Source: Burkholderiales bacterium (GTDB taxonomy: Bacteria; Pseudomonadota; Gammaproteobacteria; Burkholderiales; Burkholderiaceae_C). Taken from it: 64,000 bases of DNA. A model generated the notes under the pieces. The model had not been told where the DNA came from. It saw nothing but the letters and a program-made list of their open reading frames with translations, and did not search any database. Location: positions 1 through 64,000 of the forward strand of contig JAKFVA010000004.1 in the NCBI GenBank assembly GCA_021732385.1, given 5' to 3'. The position numbers were made by a program, and so were the translations under genes. This document shows positions 9,456 through 57,600 of this stretch, in pieces. Position 1 is the stretch's first letter; the number at the start of each line of letters is the position of its first letter.

Positions 9456-10379
9456 ATGGCCTTTGACTTTGCCCACATCAGCGTGCCTTTTCGCATGCAG
9501 CCTGGCTTGCAGCGCATTACGGCCGCGCAGGCGCAGCTCACGCCGCTGCGAAGCGGCAGCGCCTTGCATGCCGAGAAATTGCAGGTCTGCCAGGCGGGCC
9601 AAGCCATCTTCAGCGTGCCGGGGTTTGACGCCAGCGCCGCCCTACAAACTGCCACGCGCAGCCTGCCCTTGCAAGTGCGCGCCTTCCTGCCCGATGTCCC
9701 ATCCGCATTGGATTTAGCGCTGGCGGCAGAGGAAGACCTGTGCGTGATCGACGGCCCCAGTGGGCACCTGGTGTGGCTGTGCGTTTGCACACCCTCTCAT
9801 TGGAATCCGGCCACCAAAATTGGCCACGACTTTGCCGCCATCCACGCCCCAGTGGCCGACAGCGCCGCCCTGCTGGCCGCTGCCCCGCCGCTGCTGGCGC
9901 GTATTACCCAGGGTCCGGCCGCGCAGCGCTACTGGCGTCGGCAGGCGTGGACTATCTCGCCCTCCCCGCGCTACGACCAGCACCCGCTGCGCCAGCCACG
10001 CGCGCCATGGCCCACCCAGACCACCCGACCCGCTTCACCCGCTGCCACCAGCAACAGTGCCCATCACTTTGCCAGCCAGTGCTGGCTGCGCTGGGAATGC
10101 CAGACACTGCAACCGGTGCTGCACCCGGACTGCAGCACCAGCACGCAAACCCTGTTCAGCATTCGCGTGGGTTTGCTACCTTTGACGCAGGCCGTGCAGC
10201 AGCCCTGGCAGGCCAAGCGTCTGGCGGATTCGCTGGCCTCCATGAGCGATGCCGTGCTGACCTACAAAAATCTGCTTCCCGCCCGCGCAGCGCTGTTGGC
10301 CTGGTGCGCCACTTTGGCTAGATTAAACAACCCGGAAAACACTGTAAAGCACTACAAAATTGATAGTAAAAAACCATAG
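9456..10379 (+). CDS. DUF3445 protein, haem-dependent oxidative N-demethylase-like
   Basis: A 307-residue protein resembling the DUF3445 family, whose studied members are subunits of haem-dependent oxidative N-demethylases. Recognisable blocks are the MQPGLQRI start region, DLCVIDGPSGHLVWLCVC, the segment WNPATKIGHDFAAIHAPV, and near the carboxyl end FSIRVGLLPL and AVLTYKNLL. The middle (about residues 165-205) is a proline-rich low-complexity stretch. The last eleven codons (VKHYKIDSKKP) and the stop lie inside the arm of a dispersed repeat, so the native carboxyl end may have been replaced. No partner subunits are adjacent; substrate unknown. Confidence 0.72.
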   Translation: MAFDFAHISVPFRMQPGLQRITAAQAQLTPLRSGSALHAEKLQVCQAGQAIFSVPGFDASAALQTATRSLPLQVRAFLPDVPSALDLALAAEEDLCVIDGPSGHLVWLCVCTPSHWNPATKIGHDFAAIHAPVADSAALLAAAPPLLARITQGPAAQRYWRRQAWTISPSPRYDQHPLRQPRAPWPTQTTRPASPAATSNSAHHFASQCWLRWECQTLQPVLHPDCSTSTQTLFSIRVGLLPLTQAVQQPWQAKRLADSLASMSDAVLTYKNLLPARAALLAWCATLARLNNPENTVKHYKIDSKKP

Positions 10380-10602
10380 CATTACCCGCAAACCAGCAAA
10401 GCGTTTAAAGCAGTTTTCTCATCTGAAAAATGCCCATTTTTTCTAAAATTTGGCTGGCCAGCACGCTTTTGCGCCCCCAAACACCCTAGTTAGCCGATTT
10501 TTTTGGTTTTTAGCCAGATTTCAAGTACCAAATATCGCGTAAGGCCAGTAGTTATGTGCGGGTAGCGCTATAGTTTTTTACTATTGATTCAGTAGCAAAT
10601 TT
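10345..10602. repeat. Dispersed element with inverted arms, copy 1
   Basis: Two related arms point toward each other. Arm A, about 10345-10391, contains GATAGTAAAAAACCATAGCA then TTACCCGCA. Arm B, 10556-10602, is the reverse form containing GTGCGGGTAGCGCTATAG and TTTTTTACTATTGATTC. They enclose about 165 bases of AT-rich, non-coding DNA. The same arm sequence occurs at 37704-37748 and in a second inverted pair at 57346-57600. Arm A includes the stop codon of the DUF3445 gene. No coding capacity is seen between the arms. It resembles a MITE or paired extragenic palindrome; mobility is inferred only. Confidence 0.75.
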
Positions 10603-27583: not shown

Positions 27584-27602
27584 GCCTGCGCTACACTAGT
27601 TT

Positions 27603-27727
27603 TGCACGCGACTGGCGATAGGCTGGCGGCTTTAGAAACAAATTCAAAGCTTGCCCGGCTGACGTGGAATACCACTGGGAAGCGTGCCGCACTGTTTAAC
27701 TGGTGCGTTCAGCCGTTCGCCTGGGCA
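27603..27727 (+). promoter_or_regulatory. ZTP (pfl) riboswitch aptamer before glyA
   Basis: The conserved 5' core CGACTGGCG (27609-27617), the hairpin GTGGAATACCAC (27664-27675) followed by TGGGAAGCG, and the distal CGCCTGGGCA (27718-27727) match the pfl/ZTP motif in order. GCACGC (27604-27609) pairs with GCGTGC (27682-27687) to close P1, and GGCG near 27614-27617 can pair with CGCC at 27718-27721 as the pseudoknot. This class senses ZTP/ZMP, which accumulate when folate one-carbon units are short, and commonly controls glyA. A terminator follows at once. Confidence 0.88.
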
Positions 27728-27728
27728 G

Positions 27729-27762
27729 CCCTGTACACCTAGCTGTGCAAGGGACCTTTTTT
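27729..27762 (+). terminator. Riboswitch expression-platform terminator
   Basis: CCCTGTACA (27729-27737) pairs with TGTGC-A-AGGG (27744-27753, one bulged A and one G-U pair), then ACC and six T residues at 27757-27762. It lies between the aptamer and the glyA ribosome-binding site (AGAGGA), so ligand binding probably prevents this hairpin and lets transcription reach glyA. Confidence 0.78.
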
Positions 27763-27773
27763 AGAGGACTGCC

Positions 27774-29030
27774 ATGTTTAATCGCCAAACCCTTATCGAG
27801 CAAACCGACCCCGAGCTATGGGCTGCCATTTTGGCTGAGCACAAGCGCCAAGAAGACCACATTGAGCTGATCGCCAGCGAGAACTATGCCTCCCCAGCCG
27901 TAATGGCGGCGCAAGGCACGCAACTCACCAACAAATACGCCGAGGGCTACCCTGGCAAACGTTATTACGGTGGCTGCGAGCATGTAGACGTGGCCGAGCA
28001 ACTGGCCATTGAACGCGTGAAAGAACTGTTTGGTGCTAACGCGCATGGCTGGGCGGCCAATGTGCAAGCCAATTCGGGCTCCCAGGCCAACCAGGCGGTA
28101 TTGCTGGCGTTTTTAAAGCCAGGCGACACTATCTTGGGCATGAGCTTGGCTGAAGGCGGCCACTTGACGCACGGCATGGCGCTGAACATGAGCGGCAAGT
28201 GGTTCAATGCCGTGAGCTACGGCCTGAACGCACAAGAGGCCATTGACTATGACGCCATGGAAGCCAAAGCGCATGAGCACAAGCCCAAGCTGATTATTGC
28301 TGGCGCGTCAGCCTATTCGTTGCACATCGACTTTGCGCGCTTTGCCAAAGTGGCCAAAGACGTGGGCGCCATCTTTATGGTGGACATGGCGCACTACGCT
28401 GGCCTGATTGCGGCGGGCGTCTACCCCAACCCGATTCCGCACGCTGACGTGGTGACCTCCACCACCCACAAAAGCCTGCGCGGCCCGCGCGGTGGCATTA
28501 TCTTGATGCGTGGCGAGCACGAGAAAGCCATCAACAGCGCCATCTTCCCCGGCTTGCAAGGCGGCCCACTGATGCATGTGATTGCGGCCAAGGCCGTGGC
28601 TTTCAAAGAAGCACTGCAGCCCGATTTCAAGCTGTACCAGCAGCAGGTGGTTAAAAACGCCCAGGTGGTGGCGCAAACGCTGACCGAGCGCGGACTGCGC
28701 ATTGTGAGTGGCCGCACCGAAAGCCATGTGATGCTGGTTGACCTGCGCGCCAAAGGCATTACCGGCAAAGTGGCAGAAGCCGTGCTGGGCGAAGCCCACA
28801 TGACCATCAACAAAAACGCCATCCCCAACGACCCTGAAAAACCCATGGTCACTAGCGGCGTGCGCATTGGCACACCGGCCATGACCACGCGCGGCTTCAA
28901 GGAAGACGAAGCGCGTGCCACCGCGCATCTGGTGGCAGACGTGCTTGACGCGCCCAATGATGCGGCCAACATTGCCGCTGTGCGCGCCAAGGTTAGCGCC
29001 CTGACAAAGCGGTTTCCGGTTTACCGCTGA
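27774..29030 (+). CDS. glyA: Serine hydroxymethyltransferase
   Basis: A 418-residue PLP enzyme converting serine and tetrahydrofolate to glycine and 5,10-methylene-tetrahydrofolate. [19 protein letters not shown] and [20 protein letters not shown] are diagnostic; the PLP lysine lies in [16 protein letters not shown]. Length is standard. AGAGGA precedes the ATG by seven bases. The upstream ZTP riboswitch ties its expression to folate one-carbon status. nrdR starts 17 bases later, so the two are co-transcribed. Confidence 0.98.
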
Positions 29031-36560: not shown

Positions 36561-37703
36561 ATGAACACCGACGCATTTTTAGTAGAGGCCCTGCGCCAGG
36601 CGCACCTCAGCCTGCACCTGAGCGCACCCAATCCGCACGTTGGCTGCGTGTTGGTAAGCGCCCAGGGCCAGGTGCTGGGGCGCGGCCACACCCAGCAGGC
36701 GGGCGGCCCGCACGCTGAGGTGATGGCGCTGCGCGACGCCGCTGCCCAGGGGCAAAGCAGCGCGGGGGCCACCGCTTACGTTACGCTGGAGCCTTGCGCC
36801 CACCAAGGCCGCACGCCGCCGTGCTGCGTGGCGCTGGTGCAAGCCGGGGTGACCCGCGTGGTGGCCTGCGTTGCCGACCCCAACCCGCTGGTGGCAGGCA
36901 AAGGCCTGGCCCACTTGCGCGCCGCCGGTATTGCGGTGGAACTGCTGCCCCCCAGCCACCCGCAGGCCGTGGCCGCGCGCGAGCTGAACATTGGATTTTT
37001 CAGCCGCATGCTGCGCAAAACGCCCTGGGTGCGCCTGAAAATTGCCGCCTCGCTGGATGGCACCACCGCCCTGGCCAATGGGGCCAGCCAATGGATTACC
37101 TCGGAGGCCGCCCGCGCCGATGGCCATGCCTGGCGCGCCCGCGCCTGCGCCGTGCTCACTGGTATTGGCACCGTGCTGCAAGACGATCCCCGCCTCAATG
37201 TGCGCGGCATTGAAACGCCGCGCCAGCCCACGTTGGTGCTGGTGGACAGCCGCCTGCAAATGCCGCTCGACGCGCAAATCTTCCAGCCCAGCCGCCCGGT
37301 ATGGATTTATTGCGCTGTGCCAGAAACCACCGAAGCCGCCGCCAAGCAAGCCGCGCTGCAAGCGCGTGGTGCCACGGTCATCCACCTGCCCGACGCCCAC
37401 CCCGACCCCGCCCAGCGCAAAGTCGACCTGCCCGCCCTGCTGCGCGACCTGGCCCAGCGCGACATCAATGAACTGCATGTGGAAGCCGGCCACAAGCTCA
37501 ACGGCTCGCTGTTGCAAGCGGGCCTGGTGGACGAACTGCTGGTCTACCTGGCCCCGCAACTGCTGGGGCCAGGCCAGGGCATGGCCCACCTGCCCGCCCT
37601 GGCGTCGCTCCCCGGTGCCGGGGCGCTGGAATTCACGTCAGTCACGCAAATTGGGGCCGATGTGCGCTTGCTGGCACGCGGCGTGGGCCGTGGCCAGTTT
37701 TGA
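36561..37703 (+). CDS. ribD: Riboflavin deaminase/reductase RibD
   Basis: A 380-residue bifunctional enzyme. The amino-terminal deaminase (residues 1-145) has the zinc site HAEVMALRDAA and PCAHQGRTPPC. The carboxyl-terminal reductase (about 155-375) has VRLKIAASLDGTTALANGAS, ITSEAARADGHAWRA and a NADPH-binding GTVLQDDPRLNVR. Together they convert the pyrimidine from GTP cyclohydrolase II to 5-amino-6-ribitylamino-uracil phosphate. It is followed by a 202-base gap with a dispersed repeat half and then ribE. No FMN riboswitch is visible before it. Confidence 0.96.
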   Translation: MNTDAFLVEALRQAHLSLHLSAPNPHVGCVLVSAQGQVLGRGHTQQAGGPHAEVMALRDAAAQGQSSAGATAYVTLEPCAHQGRTPPCCVALVQAGVTRVVACVADPNPLVAGKGLAHLRAAGIAVELLPPSHPQAVAARELNIGFFSRMLRKTPWVRLKIAASLDGTTALANGASQWITSEAARADGHAWRARACAVLTGIGTVLQDDPRLNVRGIETPRQPTLVLVDSRLQMPLDAQIFQPSRPVWIYCAVPETTEAAAKQAALQARGATVIHLPDAHPDPAQRKVDLPALLRDLAQRDINELHVEAGHKLNGSLLQAGLVDELLVYLAPQLLGPGQGMAHLPALASLPGAGALEFTSVTQIGADVRLLARGVGRGQF

Positions 37704-37748
37704 TTTACTATTAAAATCATAGTAAAAAAAGATAGCGCTACCCGCACG
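37704..37748 (+). repeat. Dispersed element, single arm (copy 2)
   Basis: TTTACTATTAAAATCATAGT followed by AAAAAAAGATAGCGCTACCCGCACG begins directly after the ribD stop and matches the arms at 10345-10391, 10556-10602, 57346-57390 and 57552-57600. No intact opposite arm is found before ribE; only a weaker inverted pair, CCTAAAAACAG with CTGTTTTCAGG (about 37777-37787 and 37842-37852), remains. Confidence 0.72.
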
Positions 37749-37905
37749 TTTTTACTGGATAAAACACCGATTTAACCCCTAAAAACAGCTCGATTTTTCT
37801 GATTTTTTGCCAATTTGGCATGGGGTGGCGGTTTTAGGGCTGTTTTCAGGCCCCCCAAGGCCCTGCCGGGGCCGCAAAAGCCAATCCTGCGAGAATGCCA
37901 CCCTT

Positions 37906-38529
37906 ATGTTTACCGGCATCATCACGGCCATTGGCCACATAGTCAGCCTGCGCGATTTAGGTGCTGGCAGCGCCCACGGCAAACAACTGCAGGTGCAAAC
38001 GCCGCCCGGCTGGCTGGCTGGCACGGGCCTGGGCGACAGCATTGCCATCAACGGCGCCTGCATGACGGTTACCGGGCTGGACGCCGGGGGCCAGCAGTTC
38101 AGCCTGGATATTTCTGCCGAGTCGCTGGCCATCACCACGGGCCTGGCCGCTGTTGGCCCAGTCAATCTGGAAAAAGCCCTGCGCGCCAACGACCGGCTGG
38201 GCGGCCATTTAGTCAGTGGCCATGTGGATGGCATGGGCAGCGTGACGCGCTTTGAGCCGGTAGGCGAGAGTTGGCTTTTGCAGCTGCTTGCGCCGACTGA
38301 ACTGGCTAAATACCTGGCCTACAAGGGCTCGATTACCGTCAATGGCGTCAGCCTCACCGTCAACCAGGTGCAAGACCTGGCCAGCGGCTGCCAGGTCAGC
38401 ATCAACCTGATTCCCCACACCGTGCAAAACACCGCCTTGCAACACCTGCAAACCGGCCATTGGGTCAACCTTGAAATTGACCTGATTGCACGCTACGTTG
38501 AGCGCATGCTAAAGGGCGCTGCGCAATGA
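37906..38529 (+). CDS. ribE: Riboflavin synthase alpha subunit
   Basis: A 207-residue enzyme of two repeated lumazine-binding barrels that dismutates 6,7-dimethyl-8-ribityllumazine to riboflavin. It starts MFTGIITAIGHIVSL. The two similar halves carry GDSIAINGACMTVTGLD with FSLDISAESLAIT, and GSITVNGVSLTVNQV with INLIPHTVQNTALQ. The ATG at 37906 gives the classical start; an in-frame codon at 37807 lies in non-coding sequence. It overlaps ribBX by 4 bases. Confidence 0.96.
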   Translation: MFTGIITAIGHIVSLRDLGAGSAHGKQLQVQTPPGWLAGTGLGDSIAINGACMTVTGLDAGGQQFSLDISAESLAITTGLAAVGPVNLEKALRANDRLGGHLVSGHVDGMGSVTRFEPVGESWLLQLLAPTELAKYLAYKGSITVNGVSLTVNQVQDLASGCQVSINLIPHTVQNTALQHLQTGHWVNLEIDLIARYVERMLKGAAQ

Positions 38530-56041: not shown

Positions 56042-56155
56042 GCCATAGCAAAGGCTCATGGCAACATGCACAAATTGAATGCGGGCCGGGGGTATTCCCC
56101 GCGGGTGGCGCACTGGCAGCCCCTACACTCTTGGACCTTTAAAAGAAAGCCTTTC

Positions 56156-57313
56156 ATGAACGCATTGCGCAGAAAACTGCTGCTGAGCAGCTCCCTGGCC
56201 AGCCTGAGCCTCCCCTTGTTCGCCCAGGGCAGCGGTAAAACCACGGGTACCAGCTTGCGCAAGGTGGTGCTGGGCCAGTCAGTGCCGCTCACCGGTGCCG
56301 CCGATCAGATTGGCCTGGCCTATGTGGCCGGTGCAAAGCTGTTTTTTGACGCATACAACGAGCGTATTACCGAGCGTGGCACAGGCGGCTTTCAATTTGA
56401 GCAAAAAGTGCTGGACGACAGCTACAACCCCGACAAGGCCCAGGCCAACGCCAAAAAGCTGCTGGCCGACGGTGCCGACTTGCTGTTTGGTTTTTTTGGC
56501 ACCAGCGCCTGCGATAACGCAGCCGCCGTGGCGCGTGAGCAAAACGCCCTGTTATTTGCGCCGTTTGCCGCCTCCAACACCTTGCGCAGCCCAGCCAACA
56601 ACCATGTCTTTCATGTGCGCCCCGGCATGACTGACGAGGCTTTGAAAATGCTGCGCCAAACCACCGCCATCAACCAGGGCCGCATTGCCGTGCTGGCCGA
56701 AGACGACGGCCTGGGCCGCGAAGGCCTGGCCGCTGTGGTGGCCGCCGCGCGCGAGCTGAATTTGCCACCCATTGTGGGCACTGCCATGGTGCCCACCAAC
56801 AGCGACAAAGTCGACGCCGCTGTGGCGCAACTGCTCAAGCTGCAACCCCAGGTGATTATTCAGGCCAGCCTGTTCCAGACTTCGGCGGCCTTTACCCGCA
56901 AAGTGCGCCGCGCGGGCTACATTGGCTCGCTGATGAACTTCTCGGTGGTGGGGCTGGACCCGCTGTACGCCGCTTTGGGCAAGGAAATTACCGGCGTGGT
57001 GGTGTCGCAGGTGGTGCCCTCGCCCAGCCGCCTGGCAGTGCCCATCGTCAAGGAATACATCACGCAACTGGAGAAAACCGACAACCAGCCCACCTATGCC
57101 GGGCTGGAGGGTTTTATCGCCGCCAAAACCTTGGCCGAGGCGCTGCGCCGCTCGGGCCGCAGCTTTGACACGCCCGCTTTGCAAAAAACCATGCTTGCCA
57201 TGAACGACTACGACGCCGGTGGCCTGCGTATCAATTTGCGTGCTGGCATGCGCGACCCCGCCCGCACGGTCGACCTGATCACGATTGCGGGCGACGGCAA
57301 GGTGCTGCGCTAA
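56156..57313 (+). CDS. Leu/Ile/Val-type ABC transporter substrate-binding protein (copy 1)
   Basis: A 385-residue periplasmic binding protein of the Peripla_BP_6 (LivJ-like) family. The amino terminus ALRRKLLLSSSLASLSLPLFA is a signal peptide with a twin-arginine-like start. The first lobe has VVLGQSVPLTGAADQIGLAY, LLFGFFGTSACDNAAAVA and [20 protein letters not shown]; the second has RIAVLAEDDGLGREGL and [17 protein letters not shown]. It has a close paralogue 633 bases downstream. No permease or ATPase genes adjoin; the Liv-type LivHM-LivG-LivF set at 16782-20099 lacks a binding protein. Ligand unknown. Confidence 0.9.
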   Translation: MNALRRKLLLSSSLASLSLPLFAQGSGKTTGTSLRKVVLGQSVPLTGAADQIGLAYVAGAKLFFDAYNERITERGTGGFQFEQKVLDDSYNPDKAQANAKKLLADGADLLFGFFGTSACDNAAAVAREQNALLFAPFAASNTLRSPANNHVFHVRPGMTDEALKMLRQTTAINQGRIAVLAEDDGLGREGLAAVVAAARELNLPPIVGTAMVPTNSDKVDAAVAQLLKLQPQVIIQASLFQTSAAFTRKVRRAGYIGSLMNFSVVGLDPLYAALGKEITGVVVSQVVPSPSRLAVPIVKEYITQLEKTDNQPTYAGLEGFIAAKTLAEALRRSGRSFDTPALQKTMLAMNDYDAGGLRINLRAGMRDPARTVDLITIAGDGKVLR

Positions 57314-57345: not shown

Positions 57346-57600
57346 TTTGCTACTAAAGTAATAGTATTTTTAGATAGCGCTACCCGCACGCCAGTACTAG
57401 GCTAGCGCTTTATTTGATACCCGAAAATGCCTTGAAATTGCAAAAATGACGCGCTGCAGGCTTGCAAAACGTTTTTCTTGGCCGCTGTAGCCCGAAAATT
57501 CATTAAAAATTGCTTTTTTCAAGCGTCAAAAGTGGATTTTAGCCAATACTAGCGTGCGGGTAGCGCTATGGGTTTTTACTATCTATTTGATAGTAAATTT
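57346..57600. repeat. Dispersed element with inverted arms, copy 3
   Basis: Arm D (57346-57390) contains TTTGCTACTAAAGTAATAGT followed by ATTTTTAGATAGCGCTACCCGCACG. Arm E (57552-57600) is inverted: GCGTGCGGGTAGCGCTATGG, then TTTTTACTATCTATTTGATAGTAAATTT. Symmetry continues inward (CCAGTACTAGGCTA against TAGCCAATACTAGC). Total span is 255 bases, close to the 258 bases of the element at 10345-10602. No coding sequence lies between the arms. Confidence 0.78.

Follow-up and report, generated by a model that had tools for sequence, protein, structure and literature searches.

The element at 10345–10602 of the window (the whole 64,000-nucleotide stretch of DNA analyzed here) raises the question of what keeps a pair of inverted arms at a nearly constant distance at the end of a gene. 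The initial annotation had pointed to three loci that share the arm ATAGTAAAAAxxATAGCGCTACCCGCAC, and upon inspection we found two of them to be inverted pairs, as described there, and the third to be single-armed. The first complete element (10345–10602, 258 bp, no strand assigned, dyad at ~10473.5; profile match C13:10351–10598, E 1.1e-45) was the top match in the window of a phased A/T template, and carries a left core, ATAGCATTACCCGCAA, at 10376–10391 on the + strand with 3 mismatches and an exact right core at 10556–10571 on the − strand. Its left end overlaps the 3′ end of the open reading frame (ORF) 9456–10379, whose TAG stop is supplied by the left core (10376–10379). The other complete element (57346–57600, 255 bp, no strand assigned, dyad at ~57471.5; profile match C13:57347–57596, E 7.3e-46, also matched by the A/T template) lies 33 bp downstream of the stop of ORF 56066–57313 and has two exact cores, at 57374–57389 (+) and 57554–57569 (−). 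Measured from start to start, the cores are 180 bp apart in both complete elements, and the window as a whole contained 6 core matches at ≤3 mismatches where 0.75 were expected.

The single-armed copy (37704–37810, + strand) begins directly after the stop of ORF 36561–37703 and consists of one outer dyad, one exact core at 37732–37747 and phased tracts; a second core was absent at ≤3 mismatches. The A/T-phased pattern of this copy is centered at ~37808, some two turns of the helix short of where the dyad would be expected. Downstream of it runs a riboflavin synthase-like reading frame (37807–38529) with a likely start at ATG 37906. The window also holds a ZMP/ZTP riboswitch (Rfam RF01750) at 27598–27733 (+), upstream of ORF 27774–29030.

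The repetition of the arm extends well beyond the window. The parent genome (G000) is a Comamonadaceae draft of 2.61 Mb in 61 contigs, 97% complete, whose riboflavin synthase has relatives, at an identity of 75% at best, in Comamonadaceae and further Burkholderiales. Searching it with the arm yielded 170 core matches at ≤2 mismatches, compared to 3 for a reversed-pattern control, and these arms make up about 100 elements. Genome copies were taken from the searches and from the stretches around the matches, with 92 loci fetched; a sequence-only profile run over both strands of G000 placed them at 79 distinct places at least, and with single-armed copies included the places on record came to 104, a few of which lie inside called ORFs and are possibly chance matches. 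Core matches within called ORFs occurred at L131, L144 and L170:701–807, and we treat these as chance or ambiguous.

The near-constant length that had been read from the 258- and 255-base window copies turned out to be a property of the family. Within a searched range of 166–196 bp, the arms formed 36 pairs, at 183 bp (22 pairs), 182 bp (7), 184 bp (5), 180 bp (1) and 173 bp (1), while within a searched range of 160–191 bp, 54 of the 61 complete copies had a core spacing of 180–182 bp. Among the seven off-length copies, four were short by 9, 10, 21 and 21 bp, i.e., by approximately whole helical turns, and the other three were not. In about a third of copies, the second core was unrecognizable.

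The enclosed sequences had been taken to be unrelated, which proved wrong: an ungapped stack of 108 halves gave a single diverged consensus that includes the interior. It reads TTGCTATTAAATnnATAGTAAAAAnyATAGCGCTACCCGCACGTCAGTATTGGnTTAAAGCnnnTTTTGATGCCTGAAAAAnnGCC, followed by A/T tracts at 61–64 and 70–74. Each element is a dyad of ~255 bp built of two half-sites, and each half-site has a strongly conserved core, ATAGCGCTACCCGCAC, located ~85–98 bp from the dyad, together with AAAA or TTTT tracts ~10.5 bp apart. These tracts are exchanged as whole units, AAAA for TTTT or the reverse; the inner tracts of the two halves were of opposite kind, A versus T, in 38 copies and of the same kind in 9. 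A/T peaks occurred near 26, 35, 46, 58 and 68 bp from the dyad, and the A/T period in each half was 10.25–10.5 bp, with a power of ~15 compared to 4.5 for shuffles. Outward of each core, most copies carry TTTTT, with A in place of T in one arm of 14 of the 54 elements, and at positions −7 to −4 none of the 108 halves had C or G. The copies are otherwise well diverged, with a mean pairwise identity of 0.565 and a maximum of 0.70, values close to those of independent draws from the consensus columns (0.562, maximum ~0.66).

Using two wedge models, we predicted the curvature of the copies with 180–182 bp spacing, the same copies that served for the length tests. Over the central 150 bp, the predicted ratio of end-to-end distance to contour length was 0.61–0.62, compared to 0.88–0.90 after dinucleotide shuffling of each element, and 53 of 54 and 54 of 54 elements, respectively, fell below their own shuffle mean in the two models. 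When bases were inserted or removed at the dyad in the model, the mean curvature peaked at 0 to +1 bp, was much lower at ±5 bp, and recovered near ±10 bp. Predicted curvature above that of shuffles was also found in all 16 of 16 single-armed copies over a comparable stretch, and all five of the longest distant homologues were predicted to be curved. According to these models, the property that the elements conserve is intrinsic curvature, and their length would be fixed because it keeps the predicted bends of the two halves in phase with the helix, pointing in the same direction.

The copies were placed as the initial annotation had described, just after a stop codon or across it. In the window, the first element spans a stop and the other two copies start 0–35 bp past one. 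For the 80 copies in the genome with two neighbors called by a codon-based gene caller, the flanking genes were convergent in 38, tandem in 39 and divergent in only 3, a convergent fraction (38/80) that exceeds the window background of 5/34 (Fisher p 0.0013). The absence of a preferred pairing distance and of a 3′-end preference had been named beforehand as what would tell against the family; both preferences were present. At tandem sites, the T-rich strand was co-directional with the genes in 16 cases and not in 7, which by our estimate is nonsignificant.

The elements are, in addition, evenly spaced. Gaps within contigs had a mean of 24 kb and a coefficient of variation (CV) of 0.48, compared to 0.88 for random placement (0/5000 randomizations), and only 3% of gaps were <8 kb where 30% were expected. 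Profile-confirmed copies alone, among the matches listed, gave a CV of 0.50 versus 0.90. Contig C37 (L162–L165) departs from the even spacing, with four elements in 12.4 kb, two of them just 1.4 kb apart. Two kinds of insertion sequence (IS) ends, IS30-like and IS1-like by eye, were seen inside or adjoining elements at L104, L118, L141, L150, L157, L158, L162 and L170 (contig ends).

What, then, retains these elements? The proposal that they are a folded RNA, a cruciform or a MITE kept by size stands as far as the retention of size is concerned and fails for all three causes. Dyad symmetry of the consensus and a strong predicted fold (mean minimum free energy, MFE, of whole elements about −89 kcal/mol) speak for a folded noncoding RNA or a cruciform retained by size, but in the interior, complementarity between the halves of the same element did not exceed that between halves taken from different elements (0.447 versus 0.459), and the cores displayed only a small same-element excess (0.870 versus 0.858, p 0.017). 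Native folds were only 2–3 kcal/mol better than swapped-half chimeras, which is within two standard errors. Watson-Crick covariation gave no outliers, the best z of 3.2 among nearly 30,000 pairs being at chance level, and mutual information was mostly between near-neighbor positions; even the most variable core position did not covary (25 paired versus 26.5 expected). An Rfam scan at the gathering threshold gave no match at the element loci. With compensatory stem changes absent, we largely rejected a structured RNA or cruciform, and we consider such a cause highly improbable. Without covariation, additional interior complementarity or subfamilies, neither a folded RNA nor a cruciform nor an active MITE is a likely cause. 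For a recent MITE, near-identical members are absent, the maximum pairwise identity being 0.70. The elements could instead descend from an old, now inactive MITE family, whose arms were once mobilized by a transposase; inverted arms, the many dispersed intergenic copies and their restriction to a lineage fit such an origin. Target immunity, as for Mu and Tn7, can yield over-dispersed spacing and could thus account for the even spacing. Against this, pairwise identities resembled independent draws from a consensus and contained neither subfamilies nor near-identical copies, and neutral relics ~44% diverged would not keep their length and A-tract phase. Furthermore, the strict arm pattern had no match in viral contigs or in other GTDB genome contigs, the element had none in plasmids, and a non-exhaustive search found no transposase with matching ends. 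We regard this origin as rather unlikely.

Gene 3′-end placement with convergent enrichment, the TTTTT outward of most cores and the stable whole-element folds would also suit a bidirectional transcription terminator, in which the cores would pair as a long-range stem with a U run after it whichever strand is transcribed, and would serve convergent and tandem genes alike. As to the features of an intrinsic terminator, U runs are present in most arms, but the sole core stem spans ~150 nt, so that the loop would be of that size, and it lacks covariation; the native elements were not significantly more stable than the chimeras, and 14 of 54 have A for T outward in one arm. Nor does termination predict the curvature, the helical-phase length optimum or the even 24-kb spacing, and we consider it an unlikely explanation. 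It is improbable, too, that the elements are functionless by-products, i.e., hot spots for insertion sequences or recombination, or plain AT-rich spacer at gene ends. The two IS kinds in or beside several copies point that way, as do the contig ends, 11 of 64 of which lay within 600 bp of an element where 1.5 were expected, whereas the predicted curvature is above that of dinucleotide-preserving shuffles, the length is held to ~1 bp, the core is conserved and the spacing is even.

A dyad, helical phasing, predicted curvature, a length optimum, 3′-end placement and even ~24-kb spacing are what was computed here. With about even confidence, we propose that the elements act as double-stranded DNA, and not as RNA or mobile DNA, by being wrapped by gyrase or a nucleoid protein and so organizing chromosome topology. 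Each half would bend via its phased tracts, with the fixed spacing aligning both bends; a protein complex would then wrap the element, through direct recognition of the cores and shape recognition of the arms; and the wrapped complex would hold or load a topological activity at gene 3′ ends and convergent pairs, where transcription-driven positive supercoils would accumulate. A more far-reaching version, tentative but possible, is that of a genome-wide set of nucleosome-like wrapping sites, evenly placed every ~24 kb, in which length-locked curved dyads are wrapped by a dedicated complex at the points where supercoils meet. To our knowledge, from the open-access literature, the gyrase sites and BIMEs described so far lack an even placement. 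The elements bear on the question whether bacteria place topological sites at regular intervals. The even spacing, the ~1-base constancy of length and the predicted curvature optimum are all visible from the sequence alone. The 255-bp element is also a cloneable test object, for which wrapping predicts that half-turn insertions at the dyad abolish function while full-turn insertions spare it.

As for the bound protein, DNA gyrase would be the first candidate by layout, because its motif is likewise a symmetric dyad with two arms, ~10.75-bp GC periodicity and a loose center; a bending or bridging nucleoid protein would come second in this order and may be considered an equally serious candidate. 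The Escherichia coli gyrase motif determined by Topo-Seq is symmetric and 130 bp long, its two 47-bp arms having a GC periodicity of 10.75 bp, and gyrase is attracted to DNA downstream of transcribed genes (PMC6379681). Taking a symmetric dyad with ~10.5–10.75-bp arm periodicity as the mark of a gyrase motif, we found both in the element, which shares with this motif and with the strong gyrase site (SGS) of phage Mu a dyad layout, a loose center, two arms with ~10.5–10.75-bp A/T-G/C periodicity and predicted curvature (z −3.4 for the Mu site). Against gyrase, the A/T-phase template of the element scored only moderately at the Mu gyrase cleavage center, with 4–9% of Mu positions equal or higher, and its best local match in Mu was about one turn off that center. 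The element differs from the gyrase motif in its length (255 versus 130 bp), its ~100 evenly placed copies and a sequence-specific core that lies outside the 130-bp motif; therefore, something other than gyrase probably reads the core.

Among known repeats, the BIME-2 and REP sequences of enterobacteria are similar in being intergenic, at gene 3′ ends and present in many copies; some of them are bound by gyrase, BIME-2 repeats acting as transcription-independent gyrase sites (PMC6379681). Insertion sequences are reported to target REPs (PMC1525189), and the same preference may hold for the elements. REPs, however, are short stem-loops arranged in mosaics, whereas the element is one long, length-locked dyad per site, evenly spaced and devoid of a pairing signal. 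Conserved stem-loop pairing of the REP/BIME type was looked for and rejected, as neither covariation nor an excess of interior complementarity was found. Compared by size and layout, ERIC/IRU sequences resemble the element in being long, imperfect palindromes that lie between genes and keep a constant size. ERIC, however, is ~127 bp long with a high similarity between copies, and the element has ~255 bp, ~56% mean identity and helically phased A-tracts. The Beta-proteobacterial repeat element (BRE) is likewise intergenic and has been reported in Bordetella and Comamonadaceae (PMC3110155). By its description, BRE is ~90 bp long, 69% GC in Bordetella and often tandem (PMC3110155), and on this size, GC content and tandem layout we set it aside as the identity of the element.

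Outside G000, the core pattern gave only isolated single matches across 60 relatives, and the element was not found in the riboflavin synthase gene region of 80 relatives. A profile run over 200 genomes of the family yielded weak matches in 11; G063 and G088 have 43 and 47 weak matches at E≤0.1, mostly half-length. A few other genera carry distant homologues, the best of them in G012 (E 7.7e-10). Another repeat, TAGCTGCTTGCGC, has 100–600 core matches, mostly single-armed, in other Comamonadaceae (G001, G005, G010 and G015; L171–L190). It has a TAGC core, the outer CTAT..ATAGC dyad in several copies, and GGCC..TTT..AAA at similar offsets, in a layout like that of one half of the element, from which it differs by its mostly single arm, another core and weak arm curvature. 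Going by these sequence likenesses, the TAGCTGCTTGCGC repeats are probably distant relatives of the element. In G005, the one genome evaluated, their spacing among the matches listed was random (CV 1.0–1.07).
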